Assembly: GCA_031835245.1 (NCBI GenBank)
Contig: JAVKOQ010000080.1
Coordinates: 1-64,000 of the forward strand
DNA length: 64,000 nucleotides
Direction of reading: 5' to 3'
Source: Balamuthia mandrillaris
Taxonomy: Eukaryota; Discosea; Longamoebia; Balamuthiidae
Shown piece after piece: positions 2,367 through 50,671 of this stretch. The notes under the pieces were generated by a model, which made no database searches, was not told the DNA's origin, and saw only the letters and a list, made by a program, of their open reading frames with translations. Numbering within the stretch: the stretch's first letter is position 1; every line of letters starts with the position of its first letter. Made by a program: the position numbers and the translations under genes.

Positions 2367-2635
2367 TGTTGAGAATTACTCTCAACATATTAGTTCCGTT
2401 GCCCCTTTCCTTTCCTTTCCTTTCTGTCGACATCTGCAACATGGACCAATCGCCTGTTGCCACATCGCTAGGCTTCTTCCTTTTATTCCGCTTGCTTCCT
2501 TCTCCCTTTCTTTTAGTTAGTTAGTTTTGTTTAGTTCACACCACACCTTTCTCTCCTGACACTCTTTGTTCCTTTGTTCCCTCTTGAATAATACGTTTTG
2601 GCCCCATCCGTTCGTGTTATTCGCCCTTTCTAACA
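2367..2635 (+). mobile_element. Solo LTR (269 bp) inside LINE copy A ORF2
   Basis: The segment begins TGTTGAGAATTACTCTCAACA and ends TTTCTAACA, giving TGTT/AACA termini. It is flanked by a 4-bp direct repeat, AGGG, at 2363-2366 and 2636-2639. Excising the LTR with one repeat joins the LINE frame precisely (AKQA to LYSLRQQG), and the LINE copy B sequence at 6560 reads straight across this point (AKQAFYSLRQQG). The orientation of the LTR cannot be decided from the termini alone. Confidence 0.85.
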
Positions 2636-3797
2636 AGGGCTTGCTTGGCCTTGGTGATCCTCTCCTTGGCATGGGTTGTCCACTCACCACTTTCTTCAAA
2701 CCACAGTCCCAGGTACTTGGCCTCCTTCACACGTTTCACAGCTTCCCCCTTTAGTCTCCACTCTTGGAAGCAAGCCTTCTTTCCTTGTACTAGCACCACT
2801 GATTTCTTTGCATTGAACTGAAGTCCCAGAGCATTCACTGCCTCCACTGCCACATTCAGTCTTCTTTGAAGCTCAAAAGGATCGCTGGCCACCACTGCCA
2901 AATCATCTGCAAACAACAAGCAAACATTCCTTGCTTTATCTCCTCTTTCCTTTTCCTCTGCCACTCGTAGCTTTCTTGCCACCACGTCAATATACACATT
3001 GAATAAGAAGGGAGACAAAACTCCTCCTTGCTTAACTCCTCTTTCTACCAGAAATTCCTCAGAGAGTTGCCCATTCATGCAAATGACACTTGTCATACCA
3101 CAGTACCACTCTGCAATGATGCCCACTGCTGCCTCTTCTGCTCCTCTTTTGCGCAATGTCCTTGCCAGTATGTCATGGTCAAGCATGTCATATGCCTTGC
3201 TGATATCCAACAGAGCAATATAAGTATGTTCTTTGCTTCTCTTCATCAGGCATTTCTTCAACCACCACACTTGATCCATGACTCCTCTTCCTTTTCTAAA
3301 TCCGCCCTGGCAATCACTTATCCACCCTTGCTCTCTTGCTTGCATGTTCAACTGCACCAAGATAGCTCCCTCAAACACCTTGGCTGCGTTGCATAAGAGG
3401 GTAATTCCTCTATAGTTTGCTGGGTTCTGGGGATCTCCTGCCTTATGCAATGGGATAACCACCCCCTGTTTCCACTCCTTGGGGAACACGCCTTGGTTCT
3501 CAACGGCCTTGATCAGTGTCCAAATTGCGTCTTGCACATGTTTACCTCCATACTTCATCATTTCCCCATCAATATTATCCACTCCAGGTGCTTTGCCCAC
3601 CCTCAATCTTTTCCTCCATGCAAGATTAAAGCTCTCCTTCTTAAGCCAGTTGCTGCCAGACCAAGACGGTCCTTCTGGACCTGCTTCCTCTCAATGCAAG
3701 CTCCCGATGGAAGAATCCTTCCTCCCCAGCTTTGCCCAATGTTCCTTGAAGGCTGCCATGCTACCATGGTGCTTAATAACAGCTTTGGGCTCTGCTC

Positions 3798-4150
3798 TGT
3801 TAGAACCTGAGCATAGAACCAAGACAGGAACCAAGAGAAAGACGGGAGCCAAACGTATTTAATGAGAGGAAGAAAACAAGTGTGTTTGTGAGTGTGTTGT
3901 TTCTTCGTTCATTCGTCTGTGTGTTCTTGGTTGTGGGAAAAGTATTTATAGTTGAGAAGGCAACCAAGGAAGGAAAGGGGCTCGGGGTTGGGGAGTGACT
4001 TCTTGGTTTCTTTGTTCTTAAGTTCTAGGCTCGGGAAAGTTCCAGGGAAGGCAGGAGAAAGATCTTCGGAATGGCTCGGTGTCAACATAAAAGATCGATG
4101 ATAGCTGACGTGAGATTGTCGACAGAAAAGAGAAAAGAAACGAAGAAAGA
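3798..4150. mobile_element. Truncated LTR of the Ty3/gypsy element, inside LINE copy A
   Basis: This segment, starting TGTTAGAACCTGAGCATAG, aligns along its length with the LTR at 8468-8854 (shared stretches include GGAAAGTTCCAGGGAAGGCA and GTGGGAAAAGTATTTATAGT). It lacks the terminal 40 or so bases that end in GCCAACA in the other copy. It replaces the LINE endonuclease region between about codon 80 of ORF2 and the region upstream of the reverse transcriptase. A deletion or recombination therefore accompanied the insertion. Confidence 0.75.
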
Positions 4151-4382
4151 AATGATGTTTCCCTGAAAGCCCTCTCGAATGAAGAACCCTGCGCCACCCC
4201 TTCCATAGCCACTCCTCCCTGGAGCAGCCCCTCCACCCATCCACCTATACCCCTCCAAGTGCGGGGCAACCATCCTCCTATGTTCGCATACTCCAACAAT
4301 GTCAAATTGCTTACTGTCCGCCCAATAGCTGACCAATTCCTCTTGTCCCCAGCCTCTAGAGTTGACAAATACTACTGAAGTC

Positions 4383-6035
4383 ATTGGGTCTCCTCCCCTT
4401 CCTCATCCACAATGTCAGACCAGTTGGCAGCACCGTGATGCTCCTCCTCGGCCAGCACAAAGCCAGAGAGTTCCAACGAGCTGTCCAAAGCCACTGTTCC
4501 AATATTTGTTGGTTGAATCCAACCTCAAGAATAAAAGAGTCGGTGACGAGACAAGAAGTGTATTCAAGAGAATAGAGGAAGGACAACGGGAGTGAATCTC
4601 CGACGTTGCTTCAAAGTACACCGAGAGAAAAGGGAAAAGGGAGAAGGGAAGGATGGAGGATACAAAAGAAAGGAGAGCTGAGGGTCCGGGACGGATCCAA
4701 CATGAGGAGTCTTGAGATAAGTGTTGGTGATTTTACCAACATATTCTCCTCCTTTTCCTTCCTCTTCTCCCTATTTCTTTGCTCTTTAGGCTTCCACAGC
4801 GGTTTGCCTTCATTCTTGGCTTCTTCGATTTGGGCTTTGCCCACCCACCAGCGAGTGAAAGCATACAGCCTGGTTCTTTCCGCAATAATGTCTTCAGCAG
4901 CCTGGGCCGTCTCTAGAGTAACTCCCCAATGCTGCATGCCATTCTTCTCTCCTACTTTCTGCACTTCGACATGCTTGAGCCCCAACTCGAAGATCCTCTT
5001 GCACACTTTTTCCTTCTTAAGGTCCTTACTGCTCACCACAATCAATCTACCCTCCACAGCCCCTACCTTGGAGTAGGGACTGGCAAAGCCATACTATGGT
5101 TTTACTGTAGACCAATAGTTTGGGTTGGTTACTGTATCCTTGGTCCATGTCCTCCTGTATATGTTGGAGTTATCCTGCCAACATATCTCTTGATTTTTTG
5201 CCATTTCTTCCTTCCAGTATTCCAAGCTTAGTGCGCTAGCTGTAGTTACTGTTGGAGGGAAATTCCTTTCTGCAGTAATCTGGTCACACCGCAGAGCAGA
5301 TCTGACCACCTCTGTGTATGACCGTTGATAATGGGCACCCAGAGCAGGATTGTCTTTGGTACCTTGTGCACTTCCTTTTTCCTCCATCATAAGATTATTA
5401 ATCTCCTGGTTGAGAGAATCAATCAGGTCCCTGAATCATACAATCACTGCGAGTGAAAGTACGCCTGCCTCGGAGAGCTTACCACACTCGCAAAAAACAC
5501 TGCTAATACAATTGAACAGCAGTGCCACTTGACTGTTGGTTCGCACCTTAGCGTCATCCACACTGACTGAGTCCGAATCAATCTTCCTCTCAGGCACAAC
5601 ACTGGTCCCTTCCTCTTGGAGGGGCGAATCCACTACCGAGTTACGCTGATCCTCTGCACCTCTGTCGTCCTCCTCCTTTTGGTTAGCCCTTTGGGAAGGG
5701 AGGAACTTGACTGTGGTAGTATTTAGGTGCCCATACTTTTCCACCGCCAGCTTAAACGCTTCCTCCAAAAACTGATTTAACTTGTCCCCTTTGACAAAAC
5801 ATTCAGGGATCTTTGCCTCTTTTTGCATGGCTTGCAAAGCAGGCTTCCACGAATGATTACCATTTAGGGTCCCCAGTCTAAGACGTTCCTTCATGGCCAG
5901 ATCCACCCATCGACACAGGACCTGTTCCCTCTCCTGACTATCAATCAATTCAGTGCTCTTGCGTGTCAGTGCCCTATTTTTCCGCATTTTTCTCCCCTGT
6001 GGCTTTTCTATAAGCCTGGACCAAGTCCAGAGCAC
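4383..6035 (-). pseudogene. LINE copy A ORF1 (gag-like), frameshifted
   Basis: Three minus-strand segments line up: 6035-5436 (basic N-terminal region), 5390-5094 and 5057-4746. They continue beyond the solo LTR from 4506 to the TGA that overlaps the ORF2 ATG. The central part (RLIVVSSKDLKKEKVCKRIF and AFTRWWVGKAQIEEA) has the alternating hydrophobic pattern of an RRM-like nucleic-acid-binding fold, but no clear zinc knuckle. At least two frame breaks disable it. Role as a nucleic-acid chaperone is inferred from position in LINE elements, not from sequence identity. Confidence 0.55.
4507..4741 (+). mobile_element. Solo LTR (235 bp) inside LINE copy A ORF1
   Basis: The LTR starts TGTTGGTTGAATCCAACC and ends GGTGATTTTACCAACA, with perfect TGTTGG/CCAACA inverted ends. 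It is flanked by the 4-bp repeat TATT at 4503-4506 and 4742-4745; the base before each also matches, so the duplication may be 5 bp. Removal restores the ORF1 frame. A related 3' fragment occurs at about 10040-10121, so this LTR family has more than one member in the window. Confidence 0.85.
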
Positions 6036-6339
6036 TGGTAATGTTGCATTCAGGCTCTTGAGTGTTGTAGTAGTTAGAAAAACCTTTTGACTTCAACTAT
6101 ACTCAAGCCTTGGTTAGTACCTTTGAAGTTTCTTTGACATTATCTTAGAGTGAATGAGTACCAGGTTGCCGACCTTAAACTCTTCCTTCAGCTCTTCATA
6201 TTACTTCTTCATCTTCTTTTTTTTGCATTGCAGGAAGCTTCATCAAATGTATCCTTTCTTGCTTTTATCAACACATTTCTTTTCTAAGTACTCTCTCATC
6301 CAGTACTCTTGGCTTGCAGTGCTCTTGATTTGAAGTTGA
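6036..6339. other. No gene recognised between LINE copies
   Basis: About 300 bases of mixed composition between the start of LINE copy A ORF1 and the 3' end of copy B. It may hold the 5' untranslated region of copy A. I found no coding frame, LTR end or RNA gene here. Confidence 0.4.
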
Positions 6340-8467
6340 AGTGTTTGTACAAACCCCTGCCACAGTCCTTTGACGAACTTGCAATACACATCTTGTTGTC
6401 TCATTTCACACAGCTTCAAATTTCTTCCTCCATGATTAGGAAACCTCTGTCATGCATAGTCTATATGACAAATTAGACTTGATAATAGCCTCTGCAGCAA
6501 TCTGGGCAGTGCGTGTACCAAGGCCTTGAGCAATGGCTCCCTGCTGTCTGAGGCTGTAAAAAGCTTGTTTGGCCTTGCTGATCCTCTCCTTTGCATGAGT
6601 TGTCCACTTACCAACCACAGTTCCAGGTACTTGGCCTTGTTCACATGTTTCACATTGAAAGCCAACCTTCTTTCCTTGTACTAGCACCACTGATTTCTTT
6701 GCATTGCACTGAAGTCCCAGAGCATTCACAGCCACATTCAATCTTCTTTGAAGCTCAAAAGAATCATTGGCCACCACTGTCAAATCATTTGCAAACAACA
6801 TGCAAACATTCCTTGCTTTATCTCCTCTTTCCTTCTTCTCTGTCATTTCTAGGGTTTATTGCTACCACATCAATATACACATTGAACAAGAAGGGAGATA
6901 CAACTCCTCCTTGCTTAACTCCTCTTTCTCCCAGAAATTCTTCAGAGACCAGGCCTGTTCCTGTGAATGACACTGGTAATACCACTCTACCACTTTGTAA
7001 TAATGCCCACTGCTGCCTCTTTTGCTCACGGTCAAGCATGTCATATGCCTTGTTGATATCCAACAGAGCAATATAAGTATGTTTTCATCAGGCATTTCTT
7101 CAACTGCCACACTTGATCCATAACTTCCCTTCCTTTTCTAAATCCTCCTTGGCAATCAGTTACCCACCCTTGCTCTCTTGCCTGTATGGTCAGCTGCACC
7201 AAGATAGCTCCCTCAAACACCTTGGCTGCATTGCACTCTATAGTTTAGCAAGGGGATCTCCTGCCTTATTCAAGGGGATTACCACCCCCTGTTTTCACTC
7301 TTTGGAAAAAACGCCTTGGTTCTCAATGGCCTTGATCAGCATCCAAGTTATGTCTTGCACATGTTTACCTCCATACTTCATCATTTTTTCATCAATATCA
7401 TCCACTATAGCAACTTTGCTTACCCTCCCTCAATCTTTTCCTCTCAATGGAAGAATCCTTCCTTCCCAGCTTTGCCCGATGTTCCTTGAAAGCTGACATG
7501 TTACTGTGGTGCTCCGTAATTGCTATAGGCTCTGCTCTATGCTGTTTCACTATCCTTCACATGTTGCCAATCCATTTCTGCATATCCTTGATGTTCTCTT
7601 GTCTTCTTCACTTCATTTATTCCCATTTGGCTCTTCATAACTTCACAAACCTTTTCCTGGCTTGCTCCAAAGATCTTCAACTATATACTATAGGAACTAT
7701 ATACCATACTGTCCCTCTTGCATTTTTCTCACCATGGCATTCCATTTCTCTCCTTTGAAGGAGTGCTTGCACCCACCTCTACCTTTTACTTGTGATCTTC
7801 CTCTGAGTAGGACTTCCACTTTCATCATTCCATCCAAACCTCATTGCAATTATCTGCTGAATCCTTCAACTTGACTACCATGCTTGCCACCCATTGCCTG
7901 CTACCTTGCTAGTCAACTAGAGGGACAGAGTTGCATCTTTGTGATTGGTATAATGTATCTCCCTCTAGGAGGTACTATGGACTTTAAGGTCGCCTTAGTT
8001 GCAATTAAGAAGAGAATCCTAAAGGAAGGAAGATCCCTGATTATTGAAGGAAACTGGAATGCCAAGGTTGAAAAGTAGATTCACCATTTGAAATGCTAAT
8101 GTTCACATGGAGAGCTGGAAAACAAAAGATCACTGTGGACTATGACTTTTTTCCTTTCTCTGATGTTACCCTTGAAGCCCTCTCAAAAGAAGAACCCTGT
8201 ACTACTCTTTCCATTGCCACTCTCCTCTAAAGCAGCCCCTCTATCCACCAATACTCCTTTAAGCAAGGGGCAACCATCTTCCTATGTTTGTATCCTTTGA
8301 TAATGTTAAATTGCTTACTGTCAGCCCAATGGCTGACCAATTTCTCTTGTCTCCAGTTCATTGAGTCTCCTTCCCTTTTTCATCCACAATGTCAGACCAG
8401 TTGACAGCACCATGATGCTTTTTCACAGCCAGTGTAATGCCAGGGAGGAAAAGTCTTGGCTGTGGTA
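6340..8467 (-). mobile_element. LINE copy B, degenerate, related to copy A
   Basis: The DNA resembles copy A through most of its length. In minus-strand order it holds the ORF1 end (near 8460-8362), an ORF1/ORF2 junction near 8360, the endonuclease start (8345-8158), a block in reverse orientation (about 7915-8150), a linker region (EKVCEVMKSQMGINEVKK, near 7650), the region before the reverse transcriptase, and the reverse transcriptase itself (7450-6436). The catalytic box reads LFANDLTVVAND instead of FADD, so the first catalytic aspartate is lost. Several frameshifts are present. The left end, near 6340, matches the copy A region around 2150 where reverse transcriptase passes into the C-terminal segment. 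Confidence 0.75.
7915..8150 (+). mobile_element. Inverted endonuclease block within LINE copy B
   Basis: On the plus strand this reads MYLPLGGTMDFKVALVAIKK, then SLIIEGNWNAKVE, then FTWRAGKQKITVDYDFF. These match the order of late motifs of the LINE endonuclease (a GDWNA-like motif, then TWR.G and the ID/VDY motif). Both flanks are LINE sequence on the minus strand, so the block is inverted relative to its host. A similar plus-strand block occurs at about 9890-10040. Either an internal inversion or insertion of a plus-strand fragment would explain it. Confidence 0.6.
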
Positions 8468-8854
8468 TGTTAAAACTTGAGCATAGAACCAAGAGAGGAA
8501 CAAAGAGAAAGACGGGAGCCAACTGTATTTAATGAGAAGAAGAGAACAAGTGTGTTTGTAAGTGTATTGTTGTTGCTTTGTTCCTGCCATTTGTTTTTGT
8601 TGTGGGAAAAGTATTTATAGTTGAGAAAATGACAACCAAGGAAGGAAAGAGGCTTGAGGAACTGACTTCCTGGTTTCTCTGTTCTTAAGTTCTAGGCTTA
8701 GGAAAGTTCCAGGGAAGGCAGGAGAAAGATCTTTGGAAGGGCTTGATGTTGACATAAAAGATTGATGACAGCTAACATGAAATTGTTGACAGAAAAGAGA
8801 AAAGAATGAAGAAAGAATTCAAGAAAGAGTTGGTTATGTTGGCAGTTGCCAACA
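8468..8854 (-). mobile_element. 3' LTR of a Ty3/gypsy element (387 bp)
   Basis: Read on the minus strand the LTR starts TGTTGGCAACTGCCAACA and ends AGTTTTAACA. It lies just downstream, on the same strand, of an integrase and chromodomain remnant. It is preceded by a purine-rich run AAAGAGGAAGTGA that fits a polypurine tract. No matching direct repeat was found at its outer edge (8463-8467), where it abuts LINE copy B. A truncated relative is at 3798-4150. Confidence 0.7.
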
Positions 8855-8879
8855 TCACTTCCTCTTTACGAAGAGGTGA

Positions 8880-9650
8880 TATACCTTCCTTACACATATG
8901 TTTCCAATAATGTCAATAGTGTGGTAATCATTGAAGTGACATGGAGGTTCCCAGGAGTCACCTCCAGGGCTGTAGCCTTTCCAGTGGACCAGATACTTAC
9001 AATTATGGGCAGAACCATGATGAAGTGAACCTCATAGCATTTTGAAGCAGGATCAGCAGAGTCCAAAGAAGAGGAAGGGAAAGAAAGTGGCTTGGGTGAA
9101 TAAACCTTCTTTAAGAGGGAAGGCAAAACCATTTCAGGAACAAGTTGACATGTGAAATCTTCTGGGTGGAAAGCACAGTGATGAGTACATTTGATGACTC
9201 AGAAAGGACCAAGGTACTTGGGATTAGTTTTAGCATTTGCACCAGAGTTTCAAAGCATTTCAGTGCCACCAGGAGCAAAGGAAATGAGAGGAGCTTTCTT
9301 ATTGAACAAGTCAGTAATCTTGTTGAAACCAAAATCGCAGATAAACTGGTATAGAACTTGAGCAGTGGCAAGAGTGCTTTTGTTGGAGACTTGAAGAAGA
9401 GTGAAGCAAGTAGCCATATTAACTAGCACCATTATGTAGGAAAAGCCATGTTCGTTAGAAGGAAGAGAACTGAAGAGGTTGATAGCAATGTAGTCAAATG
9501 GATAAGTAGTGGTAATGGTCTTCATGGGATGAAAGCCATGTTTAGCCACATTGAAACATCAGCAAGCATCACAAGAGTGCATGAAGAAGTAACAGTCAGA
9601 GCAGAAGAGAAGGCCAGATGTATCCTTCTTTTCAAATTCAATTGAAGATA
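8880..9650 (-). pseudogene. Ty3/gypsy pol remnant: integrase core end and chromodomain
   Basis: The minus-strand frame from 9549 reads PFDYIAINLFSSLPSNEHGF and YIMVLVNMATCFTLLQVSNK, the catalytic-core pattern of a retroviral-type integrase in Ty3/gypsy elements. Frameshifts follow. Near 8890-9015 a frame reads KYLVHWKGYSPGGDSWEPP, a clear chromodomain, which marks the chromovirus branch. The chromodomain is thought to guide insertion to particular chromatin. Reverse transcriptase and gag are absent; the element is 5'-truncated and dead. Confidence 0.75.
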
Positions 9651-9865
9651 AAGAAGTCACCTTCATGAGTTTCAGAATGAAACTTTTGAAGAAGTTCTTT
9701 TTGTTGCTCCATCACAGCCAACAGGTACTTTTTTACCACTAACTTAAATGCTTTCTCCAAAAACTGATTTATCTTGTCCCTTTGACAAAACACTTAGGCA
9801 TCCTTTCCCCTTTTTGCACCACTTGAGACTGGAAAGAGTGACAAACACCTAACTTCACTTAAGTA

Positions 9866-10390
9866 GAACTAGAGAGACAGAGTTGCATCTTTTAAATAAG
9901 TGTAGTGTATCTCCCTTTAGGAGGTACTGTGGACTTTAAGGTCGCCTTGGCTGTGATTGAAAAAAATCCTGGATGTGGTCAAGGAAGGAGGACCCCTGAT
10001 TATTGGAGGAGAATGGAATGCCAGGGTTGAAAGGGGCTGAACTCAAGAAAAGGAAGGATGTAGGATACAAATCCAACGTGAGGAGTCTAGAGATAAATGT
10101 TGGTGATTTTACTAACTCTTTTTCCCCTTCCCCTTGGTATACTCAAAAGCAATGACAAATTCCCCTCTAGTTGTTTTTCTTTCTTTCTGGAATACAATCC
10201 TTTTTGATAATTTGTCCCTTTTTTTTAAAGTTGGACTTGACCAAAAGGAATTACTCTCCTATGCAATGCAGCCAAGGAGTTTGAGGGAGCTATCATGGTG
10301 CAGTTGACCATACAAGCAAGAGAGCAAGGATTATTAAGTGATTGCCTGGGCGGATTTAGAAAGAAAGAGGAGTCATGGGCCTGATTAGTC
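9866..10390 (+). mobile_element. LINE fragment C with an LTR scrap
   Basis: Plus-strand pieces of the same LINE family: an endonuclease block at about 9890-10040 (VYLPLGGT-like, then frameshifted), a piece at about 10040-10121 matching the 3' end of the LTR at 4507-4741, and a reverse-transcriptase block at 10238-10385 (GITLLCNAAKEFEGAIMVQL). The last block closely matches copy A near 3400 but lies on the opposite strand. It stops at an in-frame TGA near 10390. Confidence 0.7.
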
Positions 10391-38187: not shown

Positions 38188-41100
38188 GCTTATGCGAAGC
38201 GAGGAACACCACTACATGTGGCCGCACGCCTGCCAGACCATCACATTTTGGAGTATTTGCTGACGAACGAGCTAAACCCAGTGAAGGCGTGGCAGTTAAC
38301 CAACCTGGACGCCCTTCACGGCAAAAGCCCACTAATCATCGCTGCTGGTGGTGGTAACCTTGCCTCTGTCCGATTGTTGCTCAATAAGTTCAGTTCTTCT
38401 CCTCCTTTTACATTGCATTAACGCTTGAACGTGACGCTGACGGTAACAAACCAACAAAAGAGCAGAAGAACTGGGCTGTTTAATTCTTGTGCTGGGTCAG
38501 TTTGACAACAATGGATTTGGCCCGCTGCAAGCTGCTGTATGTTCCAGCAACGTGGAATGTGTGAAGGCTCTCCTTGAGCGAGGTTCGCTTCTCCTCCTTT
38601 TATTCTCGCCAGCTCCCTTCTTTTTTTAAAAAAATAATTCGTATCCTCTTGCTGACCCACAACACTAATTGCGATATGAAAAAACCAACACAGGTGCTGC
38701 TACTGCTCAACGGTTCGGCGGGGAAGAGACGGATGATACGCCGCTACATTTGGCAGCCTTTTTTGGCTATGAAGACATTGTACAGTTGTTGGTCAGTGAT
38801 AAGCAGCTGCGCACGTCTTGGGCATCCAGCGTTGGCGAGACGCCGCTACACAAAGCTGCCAGTAGAGGTCATACTGAAATCGCGCGCATTCTCCTTCAGA
38901 ACGACGCGGAAATCAACGCCAAGGACGCCATGGGTTGCACTCCCTTGCATCGGGCCTGCTCCTTTGGTCATATCGATATGGCAGGACTTCTGTTGGAACA
39001 AGGAGCAGATGTAAACAGCAGGAATAACGTGGGAATTACCCCTTTCTTCAAGGCTCGAGAAGGTACTTGCGCTCGTCTTTTGTGTGTACGTGTGTGTTTT
39101 TTTTTTGCTTCGTTTAACTTTGAGAGCATTTCCTTCCTTTTGTTGGTATGCTTGGACTACAGACCTTAAAATTCGTTGGAAGCGACGGCATACACGCGGA
39201 GACGCACCTTGTCGTCGCAGCGGACACACGGCGACCAAGGTTGGCACAAAGCTATATGTATTTGGTGGCTACGATGGCAAAACCTATTGTAATGACCTCC
39301 ACGTCTTCGATACTGACTCCTCGGTTTGGTACCGTCCCGAATGTAAAGGGGATGCTCCGGCACCTCGTACCATGCATTCTGCTGTGTTGCATGATCATCA
39401 CATCTTTTTCTTTGGCGGATGTGACAACACCAGCCACTTCAGTGATCTCTTCCTCCTAGACACCGGTTTGCTCTCCCCTCTCCCTCCCTCTTCATTTTTA
39501 TTTACTTTCTTTGTCATTGCCTTTATTTGTTCTAGTTACTTTCACTTGGGCAAAACCAAAGGTCCATGGCTCCCAACCATCTAAACGAAGTGGACATAGC
39601 GCCACCCGTTTTGGTCACCAGATCTTTTTCATTGGTGGTTATGAATCTAGCTCCTATTTCGATGATATTTACATTTTAAATTGTGGTAGGCTTACTCACT
39701 ATCCACTCTTTTTATTTTTATTTTTTTGATATTCACCTTCTATTTATTTACCAAAAAGAAACCTTGACTTGGAGTAAGGCAAGCATTACTGGAGACCAGT
39801 TCCCAGCCAGAGCATGGCATTCAGCCACACAAGTGCGATCCAAACTATACGTGTTTGGAGGTTGCGGGGAACACATGCTCAATCAGCTTTATGTGCTTGA
39901 TCCTGGGCCAACGGTCCACTGTACTTTACTACAGGTAGACCCTCTTTTCCTTCTAGAGTCCTAAAAGCTCTACCTCCCGGTCTTAATATTCGCGTTTCTT
40001 TTATAACAAAAATTTTCCAGACTAGAGGAGATGAGGTATCTCCTTGCAGTGGCCATGCGGCAACGCTAGTTGGGTCTCAATTGTACTATGTGGCAGGAGG
40101 AATGTTTGATTCCTTTATTGATAACATTCGCATTTTGGACGTGGACACATCCACGTGGCGGTGTCAAGAGGTTTGGCATCTTGGTGCTTACGTTGGTTGT
40201 CTTTACTTTGCTCATTTGAAATTGCTATTCCTTTAATTTTAGGGCCAACGTAACCTTGGCAAGCAAATGCAAAGAGATTCTCTCTGTTCTCCTTCATTGA
40301 ACTTGATAGGAACAAAGCTGTTTTGTTGTTTTGAAGGAAAAAATAAGGAACCTGAGCTTTGTGTAAATACTTTTGAAACAGGTATTATGTGCGGTTTTGT
40401 TTTGTTTTGTTTTGTTTTTTTTTTTTGCACCAGTTATGTGTTTAGAATCATTTGCCTGACGCCTTGCTATTTTAAATTTCAGGAAAACGCAACTCGCTCC
40501 AATCTGATTTGCGAAGTGCATTACTGAGCGGAGAGTTCACCGATTTGACCCTTTGCTTTCCCAACGAAGAGAATAAACAGATACAGTGCCACAAGGTCAT
40601 GCTTGCTGCGCGATCTGCTCGATTTAGACAGCTTTTAGAGAAATACTTAGGGGGTTCCTCTGGGGACTCCTCTTCTACTCTATTAGAAATAACCGACATG
40701 AAATATGATGTTGCTGTCGACTTGGTAGAAATTTGTTATAGTGACATGTTGGCCCAATGTCCACCCCACGCCACCGAACTGTTTCGTACTGTAAAAGACT
40801 ACATTTCTACCGCCTTCAGGCCCGCCCTTTCCTCTCTTATGCAAAACACCAAAGTACTGTTCCTCCCCCTTTTCTCTGCCTTAGCGTTGAAAGAAGCAGT
40901 GGTTTTCTCTAACTCTGAACACACCTATAATAGGTGGCATCGAACTTAGGACATGACTTGAAAGAAGGAGCATTAGGCTCAAGTCAATTCAGCGATGTGG
41001 AGTTCGTAGTGGAGGGTGTGATTGTACCAGGGCACAAGGTCATCATTGCCGCGCGTTGCCCTCACTTCCAAGCCATGTTCATGGGAGGCATGAAGGAAAG

Positions 41101-41584
41101 CAGAGAAAAACAGATAGAGGTGCCTTCCATTCCACATTCAATCTTCATGCTCGTGATGGAATTTCTCTACACGGATGCTGTGGAATGTCTTCCCGCTCTG
41201 TCTCCGAACGACACCATTGAGCTGCTCTCCGTAGCCAATCTCTACACATTGGACTACTTGAAGCAACTATGCGAGGAACGCTTGTTGGCATTCATCAACG
41301 CGGAGAACGTGTGGCTGCTGTTCCAGGCCGCTCTGCTCTATCATGCCGAAAAGCTTCGTTCTGTTTGTTGGAAGTACCTCGAAGCCAACCCTCAGCTCAT
41401 TCACGACCTGCTGGCTTTTGCTGAATCCTCTGCCAGCAACAATGACGGCATGACGTTGGAGGAAACAGAGGAGGAGGAAGACACACCTTCAAATATCCAA
41501 AAGCTCAGCGACGACGTTTGGCAGGAGTTAGTGCAGGTCTGCACCCAGTGGAAGCGAAGTTTACACCACCAAACCAAAGAGTAA
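37655..41584 (+). CDS. Ankyrin-Kelch-BTB-BTB adaptor protein
   Basis: A multi-exon gene reading from MAGIPFVFDL at 37655 to the stop at 41584, roughly 1,100 residues. Domains in order: a Gln/Ser-rich start; about six ankyrin repeats (TPLHVAARLPDHHILEYLL, GETPLHKAASRGHTEIARIL, GCTPLHRACSFGHIDMAGLL); four Kelch-type repeats (RRSGHTATKVGTKLYVFGGY, SGHSATRFGHQIFFIGGYES, ARAWHSATQVRSKLYVFGGC, CSGHAATLVGSQLYYVAGG); BTB 1 (FTDLTLCFPNEENKQIQCHK); and BTB 2 (FSDVEFVVEGVIVPGHKVII) with a BACK-like helical end and acidic patch. BTB-Kelch proteins are usually CUL3 substrate receptors, while Kelch-BTB-BTB order recalls LZTR1. The ankyrin array in front is not part of either. Exon joins were checked only at the first three introns (38102-38199, 38399-38460) and before BTB 2. 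Confidence 0.8.
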
Positions 41585-42054: not shown

Positions 42055-45000
42055 ATGGATTGGCTGGCAGGGATCTTTCAGCCACACCCGTTCATGGCGG
42101 GCCTCCTTCCGGCCGAACAACAGCCACGGCAGGGTCACACCGGGAGGGAAGGTGCCTTAGGGAGGTACCTCGGCCCCAACTCCAACGACCGCAAACGAGA
42201 AAGAAAGGAGAGACGCGCTACGTCGGCCCTTTCTTCAGTGGGTTGGAGCAGAAGACAAAGAAGACACAAAAGAGCGCTGCTGGAGAAAGAGAAGGTGAAG
42301 GAGGAAGAAGGAGAAGAAGAGTTAGGCGAAGGAGAGGAATGGTCGGAGAACGAGGGTGGCTCCTCGCCAGTAGTGCGACAGACGACGACAGAAGAGCCGT
42401 TGTTGGCTTCTTCTCACGTTCAGCTGAGCAACAGCGGGGACAGAAACAAAGAGGTTGTAGCTGCTGTGGAAGCGTCTCCCTCATACTTTGATGGGCTGCT
42501 TCACGATCGCCCGAGCTTTGATTTCGGAGTAGCAGCAGACACAACGACTCCACAGAGCAGCTCCTCGTCCTCCTCCACTTCGCCAGAACAAAGGCTGTTG
42601 GACGCCATCAACAAAGGTTTAAACTTAATACTGCTTCATTTTGCTCTTTTATTTGTTCTCCTCTCATTTTTCGTGTTGGGGAATGGAACAGAGAAAGTTA
42701 GCGACGTAAGACGACTATTGAAACACGGCACGAAAACAGGACTTGACCTCAATGCCATCAAAGTGCAGAGAAAGAAAGAGGGACAACCGGCAGCGACTGC
42801 TAACGGCAGGCGAAAAGGGCATCAACAGCGCGTAAAGAACGAGTTTCCATGGGAGGGATGGAGGCCTCTCCATGTGGCTGCGTGGCGAGGACGTTGCGAG
42901 ATTATCCAAGCCTTGCTTGACGCTGGTGCTGAGGTCAACTGTCGCAACGATGCTCAACAGGTGCAGCCCCTTTGTTTTTTTTTCTCCTTTCGATCTTCAC
43001 TTCGAAGGAGCGAAATAGGAACATGCTAACCGTTCATAACGGTTCTGATGTATACGTAGACGGCACTGCATATCGCAGCCTTGAGGGGTCATGTTGATGC
43101 TGCTCGTTTGTTGTTGTGTCATGGCGCTCTGGTCGACGCACCTAATCCTCGTCGCTTTAACCAGACGCCGTTGCAAATTGCTTCACTCAAAGGGTTCTCT
43201 TCTTCTCTCCTCATTTTTTCACGGAGCAGAAATATTAACAGTTATATGCAGCCATGCTCGAGTGATAGAGTTGTTGCTATCACACGAAGCAAACATCAAT
43301 GCACAGAACGGCAACCCAACAGGTCCACGAAGTCCCCTTCAATTGGCCACAAGAAACGGGCACTTGGACGCCATTCAAACGTTAATATATCATGATGCAG
43401 ATTTAAACACGGTGGAAAACGGCTACACGATTATGACAACCGCTGCTCTGCATTACAACGCGTTAGTGGTGGATTACTTGTGTCCCATTGTATACAACCG
43501 AGACGTTGCTGCGCAGGTCAAGAAGAACGAGTTGGATGTGGCCACGCAAACGTGCAATGCTGAGTTGTTGACGAAGCTCCTTCAGAATGGATGCTTGAAT
43601 CGGATGGCCCACAGCAGTGAGGCTGCAGACCCCGCTACCTACTTGAAAGCAGCCATTGTTCGCGGTCATCTCGATGTTGTTCGCACGTTGCTACCGTTCT
43701 GTCCTTCTGGGTCTCTTGACAACCAACAGGGGTGAGTATATATCCACTTCTTCTGGTTCTTCTTTTCTTTCCATGTCGCCGCTATGATTAAGTGAGAACA
43801 CGAATCTAGTGCTGTAATCCGTCTTGCAGCTGCCCAAGATAACGCCGACATCGTAGAGACTTTGTTGCGAACAGGTGTATCACCAAATGTGGATGCTAGC
43901 GTAGAAAGCCCGCTATCCATCGCTACCAGGAAAGGTTTTGCAAGCGCTGTTTATTGTCTGTTGGAGCATGGCGCTGATGCCAATCGCTATGAGCAGCGAG
44001 ATGGTAACTCTGCTATCCACATTGCTGGTACGCACAGTTAACTTTACTCGTTTAATTCCTCTTTTTGTTTGTTTTGCCACACACATACTGATGTACATCC
44101 GCTAAATATAGCGGAGGGAGGGCACTTGGAAATCGTTCGTATGTTGGCCAACAAAACAACCAACTTGAACAAAGCAAATAGCTTTGGGCAGGCACCCCTC
44201 CACATGGCTGCAAACGCAGGGCACCAAGTGGTGCTAAGTATCCTACTGGAAGCGGGAGCAGACGTGAACCTTCGCAATCGCAAACGTTACGGTCAAACCG
44301 CTCTTCACTTTGCTGCGGCAAAAGGTCATCTCTCCTGCGTGGAAACCTTGATTCAAGCAGGAGCGGATGTGAACGCTAAGAAAACCAACCGAGTAGGTCC
44401 ACAAACGGCACTCGAAATGGCGCGAAGCAAAGGCCATAAAGATGTGGAGGACGCACTCCGTAGAATGGGGGCGGAGGAAGGCCGCTCTCATCAAAATGCC
44501 CACGATCACATTACCACCTCCGTGCAGTTGCTGACATTTGATGATGAAGTCCCAGAACAATTCTCTTACGTCTCAACGAGCAGCTATAGCACTTTTGGCA
44601 TGGATTCCAAGCTAGCAACGGAGACACAAGCTCGATCTCCTCCTGTAACGGCCTCTTCGACAACTGCTACTGCTTCCTATTACTGTGGCCCGTGGAAAAC
44701 AGTTCGCCTCTTTTTGTCTTCTACTTTCGCCGACATGCACTCCGAAAGGGATCATCTGGTAAAGCACGTTATTCCCAAGCTGCGAGAGAAATGTGCACAG
44801 CGGAAACTGCACTTGGTGGACGTGGATCTTCGTTGGGGAGTAACTGAGGAGGAATCCAAGAGCGGCAAGGTGTTGGCCTTATGTCTTAGCGAGATCTCCA
44901 ACTGCGAGATCTTTTGTGGCTTGTTGGGAGAGCGCTATGGCTGGGTGCCCTCTTGGGATGACGTTCCTATCGATGTGAAACTGTCGTATGCCTGGCAGAG

Positions 45001-48000
45001 AGATGCCTCCGTCACGGAGATGGAGATACAACACGGTGCTTTGAGGAGAGTCAACGACCCGAACTGTTGTGCTTTGTTCTATTTGCGGGACTCATCCAGA
45101 TTTGTCAAGCGCTTGCCCGCTCAGGTTTGCATTTTTATAAAAATTTCTTCTTATGTAGTAATCGATTTTTGTAACTCACCACTTGGTCACCATAGTGGAA
45201 GAAAGTATTCCAAGAAGAGGACCAAGAAAAGTTGACCAAACAGCAGCAACTGAGAGAAATGGTAAAGAGCACACGGTATCCTTGCTTTGATTATAGTCCT
45301 GGATTAGACGAGTGCCAACTTGGCCAAGTCCCCAAGCTCATTGATTTGGAAGCCTTTGGAGAACGCTTCTTTGCAGACGTGTGGGCCATTATCGACCAAA
45401 AGTATCCCTACAATCCGCTCCCACCTGATCCGATGCAACTCGAAAGGTAGCACCTTTCCCCTCTCGCCCTCGCTTTGCATTTGTGCTGCTGTTTGACAAG
45501 TTCTGTTATCTGCTGCTTATCTAGAGCACTGCATGAAGAGTTCAAGGAGACACGTAATAGGAACTTTGTAGGTCGTTCAGCTGTTGTTGAAGAAATCATG
45601 GACTATATTCGTGGGGCTAACAACAAACCTCTGGTTGTCCAAGGCGAGCCTGGCAGCGGCAAAAGTGCTATCATGGGCCATATTGCTGATAAGTATGTTT
45701 ATCTTTCTCTATTTCGCTCTGAGTAGCATTCGCATAACAAAAAGCACTATCATAGATGCGCTCGTGAGATTGATATGTTTGTAATAACCCACTTTGTGGG
45801 TGGCACACCTTCTTCAACTTCCGTTCGTCAAACGCTGCTGCGCTTTTGCCACGAGATTAAAACCCACTTTGGCTTTTGGTAGGACTACATCTTCTCTCTC
45901 TCTCTCTCTCTCTCTCTTCTGCACTACCGACCAAATAATGATATTTTTCAACAACAAGGACTGAAATAAATAGCGATAGCTTTGAGGACCTCAAGCGCAG
46001 CTTTGCTGATATCCTGGAAGAAACCGCAAGGGACCGAAGAAAAGTGCTCATCGTCATGGATGCTCTTAATCAATTGGATCACTCTGATCGTTCTCATGAC
46101 ATGGACTGGTTGCCTCGTGTACTGCCTGAAGGCGTTAAAATGGTGATGTCATGTTTGCAAGGAGATTGTCTGAACGTCCTTCTTCAGAGGAACGTTCCTA
46201 TAGCACATGTTGGCGCTCTTACACCAGAAGACAGGTATTGTGCTCTCTCTCTCTCTCCCCCTCGTATCATTCTGACCTGTTGCTGCGCTTCAAGTCAAGA
46301 GATCGTCATACAAACACTGAACGAATATCAGAAAAAGTTGCAAGCAGACCAAATGGAGAGCTTGATGCGTAAAAAAGATTCCTGCAATCCCTTATACCTA
46401 GTTGTCGCTTGTGAAGAGTTGCGTGTCTTTGGCAGCTTTGAGAAAGTGAAAAGCAAGATTCAAAGTATGGCCGAGACTGTACCTGCTCTATTTGATCAAG
46501 TGCTTGTTCGCTTGGAAGAAGAACATGGAAAGGTTTGTCTGTGTAGCTTTTCTTTTTGCTCTTCAAACGTGCTAACACTGTACATCACAGACATTGGTTA
46601 GAGATGCTCTTGCTCTATTGGCAAGCTCACGACATGGGCTGTTGGAAATCGAAATGCTGGATTTATTGGGTGTAAACAGCTCCATATGGAGTAGTCTCTA
46701 TCTGAGTGAGTTTCTTCATTGCCTGCCAATGATTGCACTTTACATGTTCTCCGTTTTCTGACAATCGCATACACATTTGTTACATTGACTAGGTCTGAAG
46801 CTGTTCCTGAGGCCAATTGGAAAGTCTGGAGAAGGTGTACTTGACTTCTTCCATCGACAATTAGCCAAAGCAGGTAACGTATAACTTGATATTTTTTTAT
46901 CTGACATTGTCTTTTTTTACAAACTTACTCTCCAAATAAATATACAGTCCACAGAAATTATCTGAGTGTAGAGGAGGATGCACGGAACTATCATGAACGA
47001 CTTGCAAACTACTTCATGGCAAAGTCCACTCCTTTGGGCCAGCAAGAACCAGAATGGCAACCAGATCGGAATCCTCGTGCTATTTTGGAGTTACCCTATC
47101 ACCTCACCCTTGCCGCCAAATGGTACCATTCTTTCCATTGAGAGCTCAACAGTATTGATTCCATTCTGTTCCAATTGCTCATCCGAACTCTTCAAAGGGA
47201 TCAACTTGGAGCATCATTAGCCAATCTCAAGTTTATGGAGGCCAAGTGTTTGCTTGGTGGCAGCTATGGACTGGTGGAAGACTATTTACGAGTACAGCGA
47301 CATAAGGGAGATGGAACCTGTCCCGCTGCGTTCTTCCGCTCACGAGAGATAGAAAAATGCGGAGAGTTTGTGTTACGCAACATCCATGTGTTGTCCTCTC
47401 ATTCTAAATTAGTCTTGCAGCAACTCGTTAATTTCCACGATGAGGAGTTTTCTGCTGTTCTTTACAAGGAAGCAACGGAGATCTTACAGATGGAGAACAG
47501 GCCTTACGTACTGTGGACCAACAAGCCAAAAGAACTAGCAGATTTATCAAAGCTTTCCTTTGTAGCTCAATCTGAAGTCAACTGTGTAAGCTTCTCGCCT
47601 GACGGACAGAAACTATTAACAGCGTATAAGGTACGCCATTTCTTTCTTTCGTTTCGGTGGCTCTTGTTTTCGTTCTTCTCTCCTGCTAACGTGATGATTG
47701 AAACAGGATGGAAGTCTTCGGGTATGGAATATTCAAACAGGACAAGAGCTAAATTTTATGCGAGCTCATGAAGCCCGTGTTACGGCCTGCCAATATTCGC
47801 CTTGTGGCAAATACTTTGTGTCTTCCTCCGGCGACGGAACTGTGAAGAGTTGGGATGCACAATCCTGCCAACTACTGACCAAGATCGTACACCATGATAG
47901 CAAAGAGGTTGGTCATTTCTGCCTCTATTTCTCTGTTGTTCTCGTCTTCTAAATATTTCATTTTTGATTCTTCTTCAAACAGGTATTATGTTGCAGCTTC

Positions 48001-50671
48001 ACAAGAGATGGCAAATATTTGGCCTCCGGCGGAGAAGACGGAGAGCTCAAACTGTGGCATGCCTCTGCATTGGCAAGCGGAAGTCACCTCAGCAGCTCAT
48101 CTCCTTATAGGGTATTAAGAGGGCATACGGCGGCCGTCAGCGGCTGCAACTTTAGTCCATGTGGCAGGTTTCTTGTCACAACATCCTACGACAAGACGGC
48201 CGTTGTTTGGGACATTTCTGGTTCCACAAGCCGGCAATACTCCGTGCTTATTGGCCACACAAAGATTGTGAATGTACATAGTTTGCTTTGCTCTTTTTGT
48301 GCCTCTCTTGCTTTCATTATTTGTACTAACTACCAAACAAGGCATGTTCCTTTTCCATGGATGGAGAGCTGATAGCAACGGCTGGCCAAGATAAGACTGT
48401 CAAAATATGGGATAAGAGTGGTACTCTGCAAACCACCTTAGCCGTTCACTCTGACAACGTTTTTAGTTGCCAGTTTAGCAACAAAGATCGCATACTACTA
48501 ACGGGATCATGGGACAAGACCATTATCGCTTGGGACGTTCGCACACCGCGAAGCCCTCGCCTGCTCGCTACGATTGGTGGACACGGACACTTTGTGAACA
48601 GTGTGGCCTTTTCTTCGTCTAACGAATGGATTGCTTCCGGTTTGATTCTTATTATTGTCTCTTCTGCTATCTTTTTCTGATTGCGTTCATCTTTAATAGG
48701 ATCGGTTGATATGTCAGCCAAACTATTTGATGCGAGCAGCTTGCTTCATGCTCGCTTCTCGTCTGTAGGCACGCCAGCAACGCTCAGCAACGATGAGCAG
48801 AAAAAGAAGCACAAGAAGATGATACGAGCGCTTCACTTCTGCTCTGCAAAGGACATACTCGCAACTGGCAGCTGGGATAAGACGGTCAAGATTTGGACTA
48901 AAGACGGCAGACTACTCAGCACCATTTCAGGTCACGCTAAAAGAGTCAACGCCTGTCGATTCTCTCCTGATGGCAGCAAACTGGCCAGCGGTTCCATGGA
49001 CTCTACGTTGAAGGTGTGGGACACAGACACCGGAGATGAACTTATCACTTTGAATGGACATTCTCTGAACGTTTTTTGCTGCGCCTTTTCACATAACGGC
49101 CAATACTTGGTTTCTGGTTCTGCAGGTGTGTCCCATTCTTCTATGAATTTCTCATTGTTTTTAACCCCTACGTTAAGATAAGACTCTCCGGTTGTGGGAC
49201 GTGGAGTCTGGCGACACGTTGGGAATACTCTCTGGCCATCAAGACTGGGTTACTGCTGTGGCGTTTGCTCCATTTAGTCGTCGCATCGTCTCTGGTAGCA
49301 AGGATGGCACTCTCAGGATATGGAACAGCGTGACGGGTGAAGGCCTCGAAACCATCCAAGCTCATACCTCCACTATCTTGGATGTCAAGTTCTCTTCTGA
49401 TGGAAGATATATTGTCTCGGTTGCAGAAGATAAGACCATTCGTGTATGGGATGGCTTCACCTATGAAGAGAAGCAAACTCTTAGAGGTATGCTATTGATT
49501 CCTTTCTTCTTTTGCGTGCTCTCTTATCTTATCTGATGATGTCACGTACAGGCCATTCTCACGAGGTTACTGCCGTTGCGTTCATGCCCTCCGCTGAGGA
49601 CGGGACTTGTTCAGAGTTTATTGCATCGGCATCTTCTGATAAGTCTGTTAGATTGTGGCACATTCCAACTGGGGTATGTCTGCACTTAAAAGCAAACAGG
49701 TTTTAGGGTAAGAATGCAGCATCTAACATCATGGCATTTGTACAACTTTATTGATAGGAGGAAAGATGGTGCTTCTTTGGTTCAAGCGCCGTGATGTCAT
49801 TGGATGTGATAAATAACACAACCTTAGCAGCAGGAGACAGTCTTGGCAATATGTACATTCTTCGACTATATGGCCCGATGCTGGAAGGTAATTTAAATAA
49901 CTGTTGACGTTTATTCTTATGCACTAATTGTTTCTTTTCGCCTTATTCAGAAGTGGGAGACGGCTCAATTCATTGCCTTGATTTACGAGTGGGCCATGTG
50001 CTTCAAGTCAGAAAACATGAGAATGCAGATACTCTCTATGTATCGCAAGTTGACCTCGGTGAGAGCAAACCCAGACAGGTAGTGAGCGGTCTCGTCAAGC
50101 ACCTGTCTATCCACCAACTTCAAGGCGAGAAGGTTGTAGTACTTTGTAACGTCAAACCCAGTCGTTTGAAAGGTTCGTGCAACACTTCCTGTTGTTCTCG
50201 TTCTTCTTGTCTTCGGCTCTTCCTGTTTTGTTTGTTTGTTAGTAAGTTTGTATTTTTCTTCCAATTATCGGTTCTAACTGTTCTATTGCATGTTAGGCAT
50301 TGAATCGCAAGCGATGATAGTAGGCGTTTCAGCAAATGATCCTTCAGCTAGACCTGCCGTGGAGCTTCTTCTTCCCCCACAAGGTAAATTATCCTCTTAC
50401 CGCCATTCAGTGCTCCGTGGTTTTTTCTTTTAAACTTTATACTGATGTAATGATAGACGCACCCGTTGGCGATCGTCTTTTCTTTGGCCCTAATCCACCA
50501 CCGCAAAGGCCGCTTGAAACCATCGACTTTAAGGACGTGATGGCCGCTTTTGGAGAGGAGCTGCGAACAGACGCTCGTGGCCAAGCGCATTACCGTGACC
50601 AGCCCTTGCTCTCGTCCAGCACGGGAGCCGGCTGCTTCGCCCCCTCCATTCGTTTCGGCCACGTGGCGTGA
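42055..50671 (+). CDS. Giant STAND protein: ankyrin, DUF4062, NACHT, 14 WD40 repeats, EMAP-II-like tRNA-binding domain
   Basis: A gene of about 20 exons, roughly 2,200 residues. A charged start is followed by about ten ankyrin repeats (GWRPLHVAAWRGRCEIIQAL ... QTALHFAAAKGHLSCVETLI). A DUF4062 domain (VRLFLSSTFADMHSERDHLV, VDVDLRWGVTEEE) leads to a NACHT NTPase with P-loop VVQGEPGSGKSAIMG and Walker B KVLIVMDALNQLD. Fourteen WD40 repeats (47560-49880) make two seven-blade propellers. This order is shared with TEP1 and NWD-type STAND proteins, which act as signal-triggered assembly switches. The last exons add a complete EMAP-II/tRNA-binding OB domain. The joins 49673 to 49758 and 49887 to 49951 keep the frame, and the last domain has no ATG of its own, so it is a fusion. 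A role in sensing and signalling, possibly in defence, is inference; no effector domain of known toxicity is seen. Confidence 0.85.
49951..50671 (+). other. EMAP-II-like tRNA-binding domain at the end of the STAND protein
   Basis: Three exons (49951-50172, 50297-50383, 50457-50671) encode about 175 residues: LDLRVGHVLQVRKHENADTL, VSQVDLGESKPRQVVSGL, VVVLCNVKPSRLKGIESQAM and PVGDRLFFGPNPPP. This matches the OB fold plus EMAP-II extension of AIMP1, the end of animal tyrosyl-tRNA synthetase, and Arc1p. In these the domain binds tRNA near its elbow. The KPSRLKGIESQAM segment, which in the family contacts RNA and carries the conserved Lys/Arg and Ser, is present. It is normally attached to aminoacyl-tRNA synthetases, not to STAND proteins. 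Confidence 0.88.

Follow-up and report, generated by a model that had tools for sequence, protein, structure and literature searches.

Gene structure and domain layout

The forward strand of a 64,000-nt stretch of contig C79 of Balamuthia mandrillaris, an amoeba capable of infecting people, carries a gene whose predicted product joins a STAND-type NACHT protein with WD40 propellers to a C-terminal EMAPII-type OB domain. The whole stretch is hereafter called the window. The gene was modelled with 25 coding exons, which form one frame from the ATG at 42055 to the TGA at 50671 with no internal stops; all of the introns are of the GT..AG type and 52–124 nt in size. The predicted protein is identical across all 2,278 residues to an NCBI protein from the same species (P0001), whose public name is Telomerase protein component 1. 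The layout is a basic N-terminus followed by ankyrin repeats, DUF4062, NACHT, two WD40 propellers, and a complete EMAPII-type OB domain, with the following features:

42055..50671, + strand: whole gene, 25 predicted coding exons, 2,278 aa, identical to NCBI protein P0001
42139..42273, + strand: strongly basic N-terminal stretch, residues 29–73 (net charge +11, pI 12)
42865..44488, + strand: ankyrin repeats, residues ~246–680, in several exons (Pfam)
44684..45444, + strand: DUF4062, TIR-like NAD+-cleaving (NADase) domain, residues ~746–975, Pfam match at 753–849 (function as reported in PMC13174449)
45023..45025, + strand: E859, counterpart of the human TEP1 catalytic E1008 in the alignment
45625..46319, + strand: NACHT NTPase, residues ~1010–1173 (Pfam)
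45643–45669, + strand: Walker A motif GEPGSGKSA, in NACHT
46044–46079, + strand: Walker B motif VLIVMDALNQLD, in NACHT
46455..46704, + strand: NWD1-like winged helix, residues ~1219–1282 (Pfam HTH_NWD1)
47535..48773, + strand: first WD40 propeller, residues ~1481–1800 (boundary by judgement)
48774..49865, + strand: second WD40 propeller, residues ~1801–2097 (boundary by judgement)
49888..49950, + strand: 63-nt phase 1 intron separating the last propeller exon from the first OB exon
49983..50476, + strand: EMAPII/tRNA_bind OB core, residues 2116–2214, in three exons (Pfam, PDB match)
50154..50316, + strand: putative tRNA 3′-end pocket, K2173 (50154–50156), K2178 (50169–50171), S2182 (50305–50307), and M2185 (50314–50316), with an intron between (roles from PMC11286949 and PMC12021450)
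50480..50668, + strand: EMAPII-type C-terminal extension, residues 2216–2278, weakly conserved

These parts and their order had been named in a first-pass annotation made from the sequence alone, and both were confirmed by the Pfam matches and the gene model. Pfam was run on the full protein (best 25 of 68 families) and on three pieces (residues 1–239, 747–1474, and 2054–2278). On the pieces, DUF4062 was matched with an E-value of 1.4e−12. The NACHT match scored 28.4 bits (cut-off 26.7), and Walker A and Walker B are both present, placing the protein among the STAND/NACHT NTPases; HTH_NWD1 was matched with 33.1 bits (cut-off 27), giving a winged helix together with a C-terminal repeat sensor. 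The tRNA_bind family (PF01588) was matched with 97.4 bits and an E-value of 5.2e−28 over model positions 1–96 of 96, which bears out the earlier description of the OB domain as intact. On the full protein, WD40 was matched in 13 separate stretches, as could be expected of 14 blades of which the last is degenerate; the 14 repeats counted in the first pass are compatible with this, the fourteenth only as a degenerate last blade. No Pfam family was found in residues 1–239. The basic stretch was chosen as the most basic 45-residue segment starting within the first 200 residues, and its net charge of +11 compares with +8 at most for any 45-residue segment starting past residue 260.

The last propeller exon (49758–49887) ends in phase 1 and splices, as had been read in the first pass, to the first of three OB exons (49951–50172, 50297–50383, and 50457–50671) with the frame kept. 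An in-frame stop is present within the intervening 63-nt intron, and an in-frame TGA at 47139–47141 falls in another predicted intron (47123–47197). An assembly join in the 63-nt intron had been named as a possible source of error; no N was found anywhere in the window. The statement that the OB part has no ATG of its own did not hold, and M2074, M2093, and M2102, which lie in frame closely upstream of the OB domain, leave room for an internal start on sequence alone. Genes have been annotated in three B. mandrillaris strains by prediction supported with RNA-seq reads (PMC10471605), and the main text of a paper on the trophozoite transcriptome mentions neither NACHT nor telomerase (PMC8569187).

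The fusion in homologous proteins

An OB-directed protein search in which only proteins of similar length were admitted gave P0001, P0002, and one valyl-tRNA synthetase (ValRS). The OB-directed search from P0002 returned P0002 alone and was insensitive, since P0001 itself was missed. A NACHT-directed search (E ≤ 1e−30) found 523 proteins, of which 120 were listed, and was the source of P0004, P0007, and P0011; further OB fusions may be missed beyond these 120. Five EMAPII domains (P0001, P0002, ValRS, and two from the B. mandrillaris genome) were combined into an OB profile, which matched 6 of 121 proteins, namely ValRS and the STAND proteins P0001, P0002, P0004, P0007, and P0011. The co-occurrence of NACHT/WD40 and EMAPII in one chain, which the first-pass annotation had proposed to look for in protein databases, was thus found in four further proteins, and its reading of one in-frame fusion gains from the same OB domain on the same core in each of them. 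P0002 is a complete open reading frame from a Trinity transcript (EukProt transcriptome), with 46% identity to P0001 over 2,127 alignment columns (residues 164–2272). In P0004, P0007, and P0011, which derive from contigs of 6,696, 12,212, and 6,495 bp, respectively, the core continues into the OB domain. P0007 lacks the N-terminus, and a comparable basic N-terminal stretch occurs in P0002, P0004, and P0011, that is, in four of the four full-length homologues when P0001 is included.

Identities of P0001 to P0002, P0004, P0007, and P0011 were 48, 49, 44, and 35% for the OB core, 54, 54, 51, and 37% for the second propeller, and 43, 39, 37, and 31% for the first propeller, the OB core being conserved nearly as well as the adjoining second propeller. 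The link between the last blade and the OB domain is approximately 16 residues in P0001, short in P0002, P0004, and P0011, and longer in P0007. These linkers differ in sequence, and no common processing site was seen by eye among the five proteins. The last blade of P0002 and that of P0021 (a relative described below) are matched by the TEP1 C-terminal propeller model, and the OB domain therefore appears to have been added behind the natural terminus of a TEP1-like protein. As its relatives share its parts and their order, P0001 looks like a member of a real, conserved protein family, and the possibility of two separate genes was rejected in view of the four further fusions.

Among prokaryotes, a two-pattern scan gave five core-related loci, none of which was matched by the OB profile (0/5; frames of >60 aa, E ≤ 10). 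At one of them (L026), a tblastn segment reached residue 2164, in the OB region; it was read as an out-of-register WD40 alignment because the OB profile had no match there. In viral contigs, 50 stretches with the pattern were found, none of them a relative by tblastn. P0003, a protein of Paratrimastix pyriformis named as a putative valine-tRNA ligase, has an EMAPII-type domain at its C-terminus (residues ~1143–1310).

Phylogenetic position and related genes in the genome

Phylogenetic trees were based on 121 proteins with a core match, including the B. mandrillaris TEP1 (contig C72); 13 short or stretched sequences were dropped, leaving 108 rows, of which 72 were used for a quick tree and 26, picked by hand, for a careful one. 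In both trees, the five OB proteins formed one clade together with P0012 and P0021, which bear ankyrin repeats and no visible OB domain. This ankyrin-bearing clade, with support of 100/99 in the careful tree, was apart from the TEP1-type rows, including the TEP1 of B. mandrillaris. An exclusive clade of the five OB proteins was rejected (approximately unbiased test, p = 0.018). We prefer one gain of the OB domain, with loss or non-detection in P0012 and P0021, to two gains; long branches are involved. The public gene name of P0001 masks both its OB domain and its position outside the TEP1 clade.

The genome search covered an assembly of 64,792,369 bases in 775 contigs. PF01588 matched at four places: the gene on C79 and contigs C29, C150, and C3, whose translations read as an AIMP1/Arc1p-like gene, a tyrosyl-tRNA synthetase (TyrRS)-type tail, and the beta subunit of a bacterial phenylalanyl-tRNA synthetase (PheRS), respectively. 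DUF4062 was found on C72 and C663 (both with TROVE), on C52 and C9 (both read as having TPR-like repeats), on C596, and in the C79 gene. A NACHT search with the OB-fusion protein also matched C107, C497, and C206, and TROVE matched C72, C663, C219, and C27, not C79. Within the reach of these searches, OB and NACHT are fused only once in the assembly.

The TROVE-bearing TEP1 on C72 is a single long open frame of 2,745 aa, compared with 25 exons for the OB-fusion gene, and the stretch at 2496–9899 of that contig (L019) covers 2,468 aa of it. C72 and C663 are possibly unmerged copies, given their near-equal match scores. Matches to the vault repeat of the major vault protein (MVP) were found on C46, C20, C543, and C129, and vault particles are therefore likely in B. 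mandrillaris. Contig C3 (569,775 bp) contains a stretch of 28% GC (L022) that encodes a RarA-like ATPase as well as the bacterial PheRS beta and looks like a low-GC bacterial symbiont or contaminant, mollicute-like by reading. In the window, the gene is flanked on the same strand by an upstream Kelch/BTB-type gene (~39900–41584) and a downstream CAP-Gly-type gene (from 50895, with RPTS repeats near 51360), both named by reading.

The predicted NADase site and the putative tRNA 3′-end pocket

DUF4062 was described in a 2026 preprint as a TIR-like NADase that is active in human TEP1 and in bacterial Swarozyc (PMC13174449). According to the same source, the NADase of TEP1 is located inside the vault, requires E1008, and is lowered in activity by R908A and R976A, and the activity of the TEP1 and bacterial domains increases with concentration or assembly. 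The only PDB sequence match of our core at E ≤ 0.001 was TEP1 chain 11gz (2e−40). With a numbering offset of 893, R908, R954, and R976 land on Arg in this chain, and E1008 becomes residue 115 of the chain, where it is the second Glu in SVTEMEV and is aligned with E859 of P0001 (counted on the alignment). This catalytic Glu is identical in all 108 aligned rows, P0001 included; Arg occupies the R976 position in 107/108 rows (R829 in P0001) and the R908 position in 85/108. Judged from this alignment, P0001 keeps the predicted NADase glutamate and lacks one supporting arginine. Because DUF4062 has been reported as a TIR-like NADase (PMC13174449), NAD+ cleavage is the likely output of this domain.

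The best PDB match of the OB core was human AIMP1/EMAPII (2.6e−28), with identity at 46 of the 97 core residues aligned. In such OB domains, the pocket residues hold the 3′ CA end of tRNA (PMC11286949, PMC12021450). The yeast Arc1p residues K269/R274/S278/M281, spaced as K-x4-R-x3-S-x2-M, correspond to K2173/K2178/S2182/M2185 of P0001, three being identical and Lys replacing Arg once; Lys likewise stands at the Arg position in the B. mandrillaris TyrRS-type tail and in ValRS. The same positions read K/H/S/M in P0002, K/R/S/M in P0004 and P0007, and P/R/S/M in P0011. In Arc1p, M281A by itself gave no defect (PMC11286949, PMC12021450), and K269, R274, and S278 are equivalent to K326, R331, and S335 of T. 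brucei MCP1, each of which is required for deacylation of Ala-tRNA (PMC12021450). The residues of the putative pocket for the tRNA 3′ CA end are therefore largely kept in P0001. Arc1p has a second, basic RNA contact (PMC11286949), which the N-terminal basic stretch of P0001 recalls, making that stretch a candidate for such a contact. Caspase-7 cleavage abolishes the tRNA binding of p43/AIMP1 (PMC4394549).

A possible RNA-gated switch and its alternatives

Our best reading of P0001 is a TEP1-like STAND protein of the NADase type, in which a predicted C-terminal EMAPII tRNA-end binder stands in place of TROVE. We tentatively suggest, largely by analogy, that it acts as a single TEP1-related STAND switch, in which the OB domain senses the 3′ end of tRNA, NACHT assembles, and DUF4062 cleaves NAD+. 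The first-pass annotation had likewise supposed that tRNA gates the NACHT switch; this part is plausible, and what it had missed is that DUF4062 is a reported NADase and that the core is TEP1-like. On the model of APAF-1 and of a speculation made for TEP1 (PMC13174449), a C-terminal signal would let NACHT oligomerise and in this way bring the DUF4062 domains together. In the resting state of P0001, the propellers would be folded back onto NACHT, by analogy with APAF-1, and the OB domain, close to the last blade, would sense the presence, loss, or change of tRNA, or of some other RNA whose free 3′ end is CCA-like. A change at the OB domain would then free NACHT for ATP binding and oligomerisation, and the oligomers would align the DUF4062 domains, leading to NAD+ cleavage and to a stress, self-destruct, or anti-pathogen response. 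Bound tRNA could close the switch, open it, or merely position the protein. If tRNA ends do gate the switch, a protist would couple NAD+-based cell death to the state of its translation machinery. We consider it distinctly unlikely that the protein is, more specifically, a protist guard of tRNA integrity, in which the EMAPII pocket would hold CA ends and the removal of CCA or the cutting of tRNA by viruses, bacteria, or stress nucleases would trigger the destruction of NAD+; if it were, tRNA ends would gate a STAND receptor whose RNA module is swapped relative to the TROVE of TEP1.

Several observations weigh against the switch. The fold-back of the propellers and the gating by tRNA are analogies. 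The counterpart of R908 is A761 in P0001, Ala in P0002, and Thr in P0004, with Arg in P0011, and among human NWD1, NWD2, NPHP3, and TEP1, all carriers of DUF4062, NADase activity was seen for TEP1 only (PMC13174449). In the pocket, the first Lys is replaced by Pro in P0011 and the Arg by His in P0002. The OB core is weakly basic (12 K+R versus 11 D+E), and in Arc1p and AIMP1 the OB domain is insufficient for strong tRNA binding, a second region being needed (PMC11286949). The C-terminal extension of P0001 shares only 20, 19, 12, and 16% identity with P0002, P0004, P0007, and P0011, respectively. Finally, P0021 stops just after the last blade and P0012 inside the propellers, and neither shows an OB domain; given these end points, the domain was either lost or lies in an unseen exon, and part of the clade may be able to do without it.

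Of the other explanations, the one that survives best, although we regard it as somewhat unlikely, is that the OB domain serves as an address tag rather than a sensor, through which the NADase switch docks to the tRNA pool, ribosomes, or the multi-synthetase complex, while another ligand triggers the switch through the propellers or ankyrins. In other proteins, EMAPII-type OB domains have been described as modules that recruit tRNA, act as gatekeepers, and serve in trafficking (PMC11286949, PMC4394549), and the propellers and ankyrins are available to sense another ligand. The conservation of the OB core, almost that of the second propeller, speaks for a working part, yet it does not separate a tag from a sensor.

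It is quite improbable that P0001 is a second vault-associated TEP1-like NADase, with EMAPII replacing TROVE as the holder of a small vault-type RNA. Its TEP1-like core, a genome with vault-repeat loci as well as a TROVE-type TEP1, and the report of TEP1 as a NADase within the vault (PMC13174449) would suit this idea, whereas the tree places the protein outside the TEP1 clade. No match to vault RNA was found in the B. mandrillaris genome or in 14 control genomes, a search that shows nothing because 0/14 of the controls matched. Slightly more improbable still is an enzymatic role, in which the OB domain would deacylate tRNA as T. brucei MCP1 and yeast Arc1p do and would be coupled to a STAND switch. 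P0001 has K, K, and S at the places of the three residues that MCP1 requires; however, the MCP1 tests used changes to Ala, not Lys for Arg (PMC12021450), and P0002 has His at the Arg place and P0011 lacks the first Lys.

The first-pass annotation had also offered release of the OB domain as a signal, comparable to AIMP1/EMAPII in animals; the domain would be cleaved off in the way that EMAPII is from AIMP1. Membership of the same domain family invites the comparison, but the linkers differ in sequence, are short in P0001, P0002, P0004, and P0011, and show no shared cleavage site by eye, and we regard this idea as unsupported and highly improbable. That prediction misjoined a WD40 gene and a small neighbouring EMAPII gene is hardly credible: in-frame Met codons stand shortly upstream of the OB domain and the B. 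mandrillaris fusion is a predicted one, but the spacer is only 63 nt in a window without N, the transcript-derived P0002 has the same fusion, and P0004, P0007, and P0011 each carry it as one listed protein on one contig.

Comparison with known systems

The first-pass annotation knew of no described protein with this order of domains, and our literature search agrees: among the papers searched, it found none joining NACHT, EMAP, WD40, and “tRNA-binding domain”, nor tRNA_bind and NACHT. The main text of the DUF4062 preprint (PMC13174449) mentions no tRNA, ankyrin, OB-fold, or protist. DUF4062, NACHT, and ankyrin are mentioned together in PMC8242945 and PMC10934728, and on that account an ankyrin–DUF4062–NACHT layout may exist elsewhere.

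A STAND-like NTPase with a C-terminal OB fold is already known in SAMD9 (PMC5445408, PMC12331169). SAMD9/SAMD9L resemble P0001 in having N-terminal enzyme-type domains, a STAND-like NTPase, repeats, and a C-terminal OB domain with predicted RNA binding, and differ in that these parts are AlbA, SIR2-like, TPRs, and a cold-shock-like OB (PMC5445408), whereas P0001 has DUF4062, NACHT, WD40, and an EMAPII-type OB. Pfam found no AlbA, SIR2-like, TPR, or cold-shock-type OB domain in the three scanned pieces of P0001, and the remainder of the protein is ankyrin and WD40 among the best 25 of 68 families. Bacterial defence proteins with DUF4062, Swarozyc among them, likewise pair this domain, as an NAD+-cleaving output, with an auxiliary sensor; in KpSwz, however, the auxiliary domain is of the helix-turn-helix/winged type (PMC13174449). 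NWD1, NWD2, and NPHP3 share the DUF4062–NACHT core, some with WD40 (PMC13174449), and P0001 has the HTH_NWD1 match; their layout as described there is without an EMAPII OB, and the human proteins showed no NADase activity.

With AIMP1/EMAPII, Arc1p, and the TyrRS tail, P0001 shares the OB core and the pattern of the 3′-end pocket, and the match extends into the C-terminal extension of AIMP1. Those proteins are synthetases or their cofactors, whereas the OB domain of P0001 is on a STAND protein, and the GST-like or helical N-terminus of the AIMP1/Arc1p cofactors was not found, residues 1–239 holding no Pfam family and being followed by ankyrins. The TROVE/vWA N-terminus of a strict TEP1 was not found either, on the same evidence and by the TROVE search of the genome. 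P0001 nevertheless resembles TEP1 in its core of DUF4062, NACHT, a helical part, and two propellers, in the catalytic Glu, and in carrying an RNA-binding module on that core, and differs in its ankyrins, its C-terminal EMAPII OB domain as the predicted RNA binder, and its separate clade. One amoeba thus appears to pair a TEP1-type core with two RNA modules, TROVE in the true TEP1 and the EMAPII OB in P0001, so that the role of RNA for TEP1-like NADases and the purpose of vaults would be open to a clean swap experiment.

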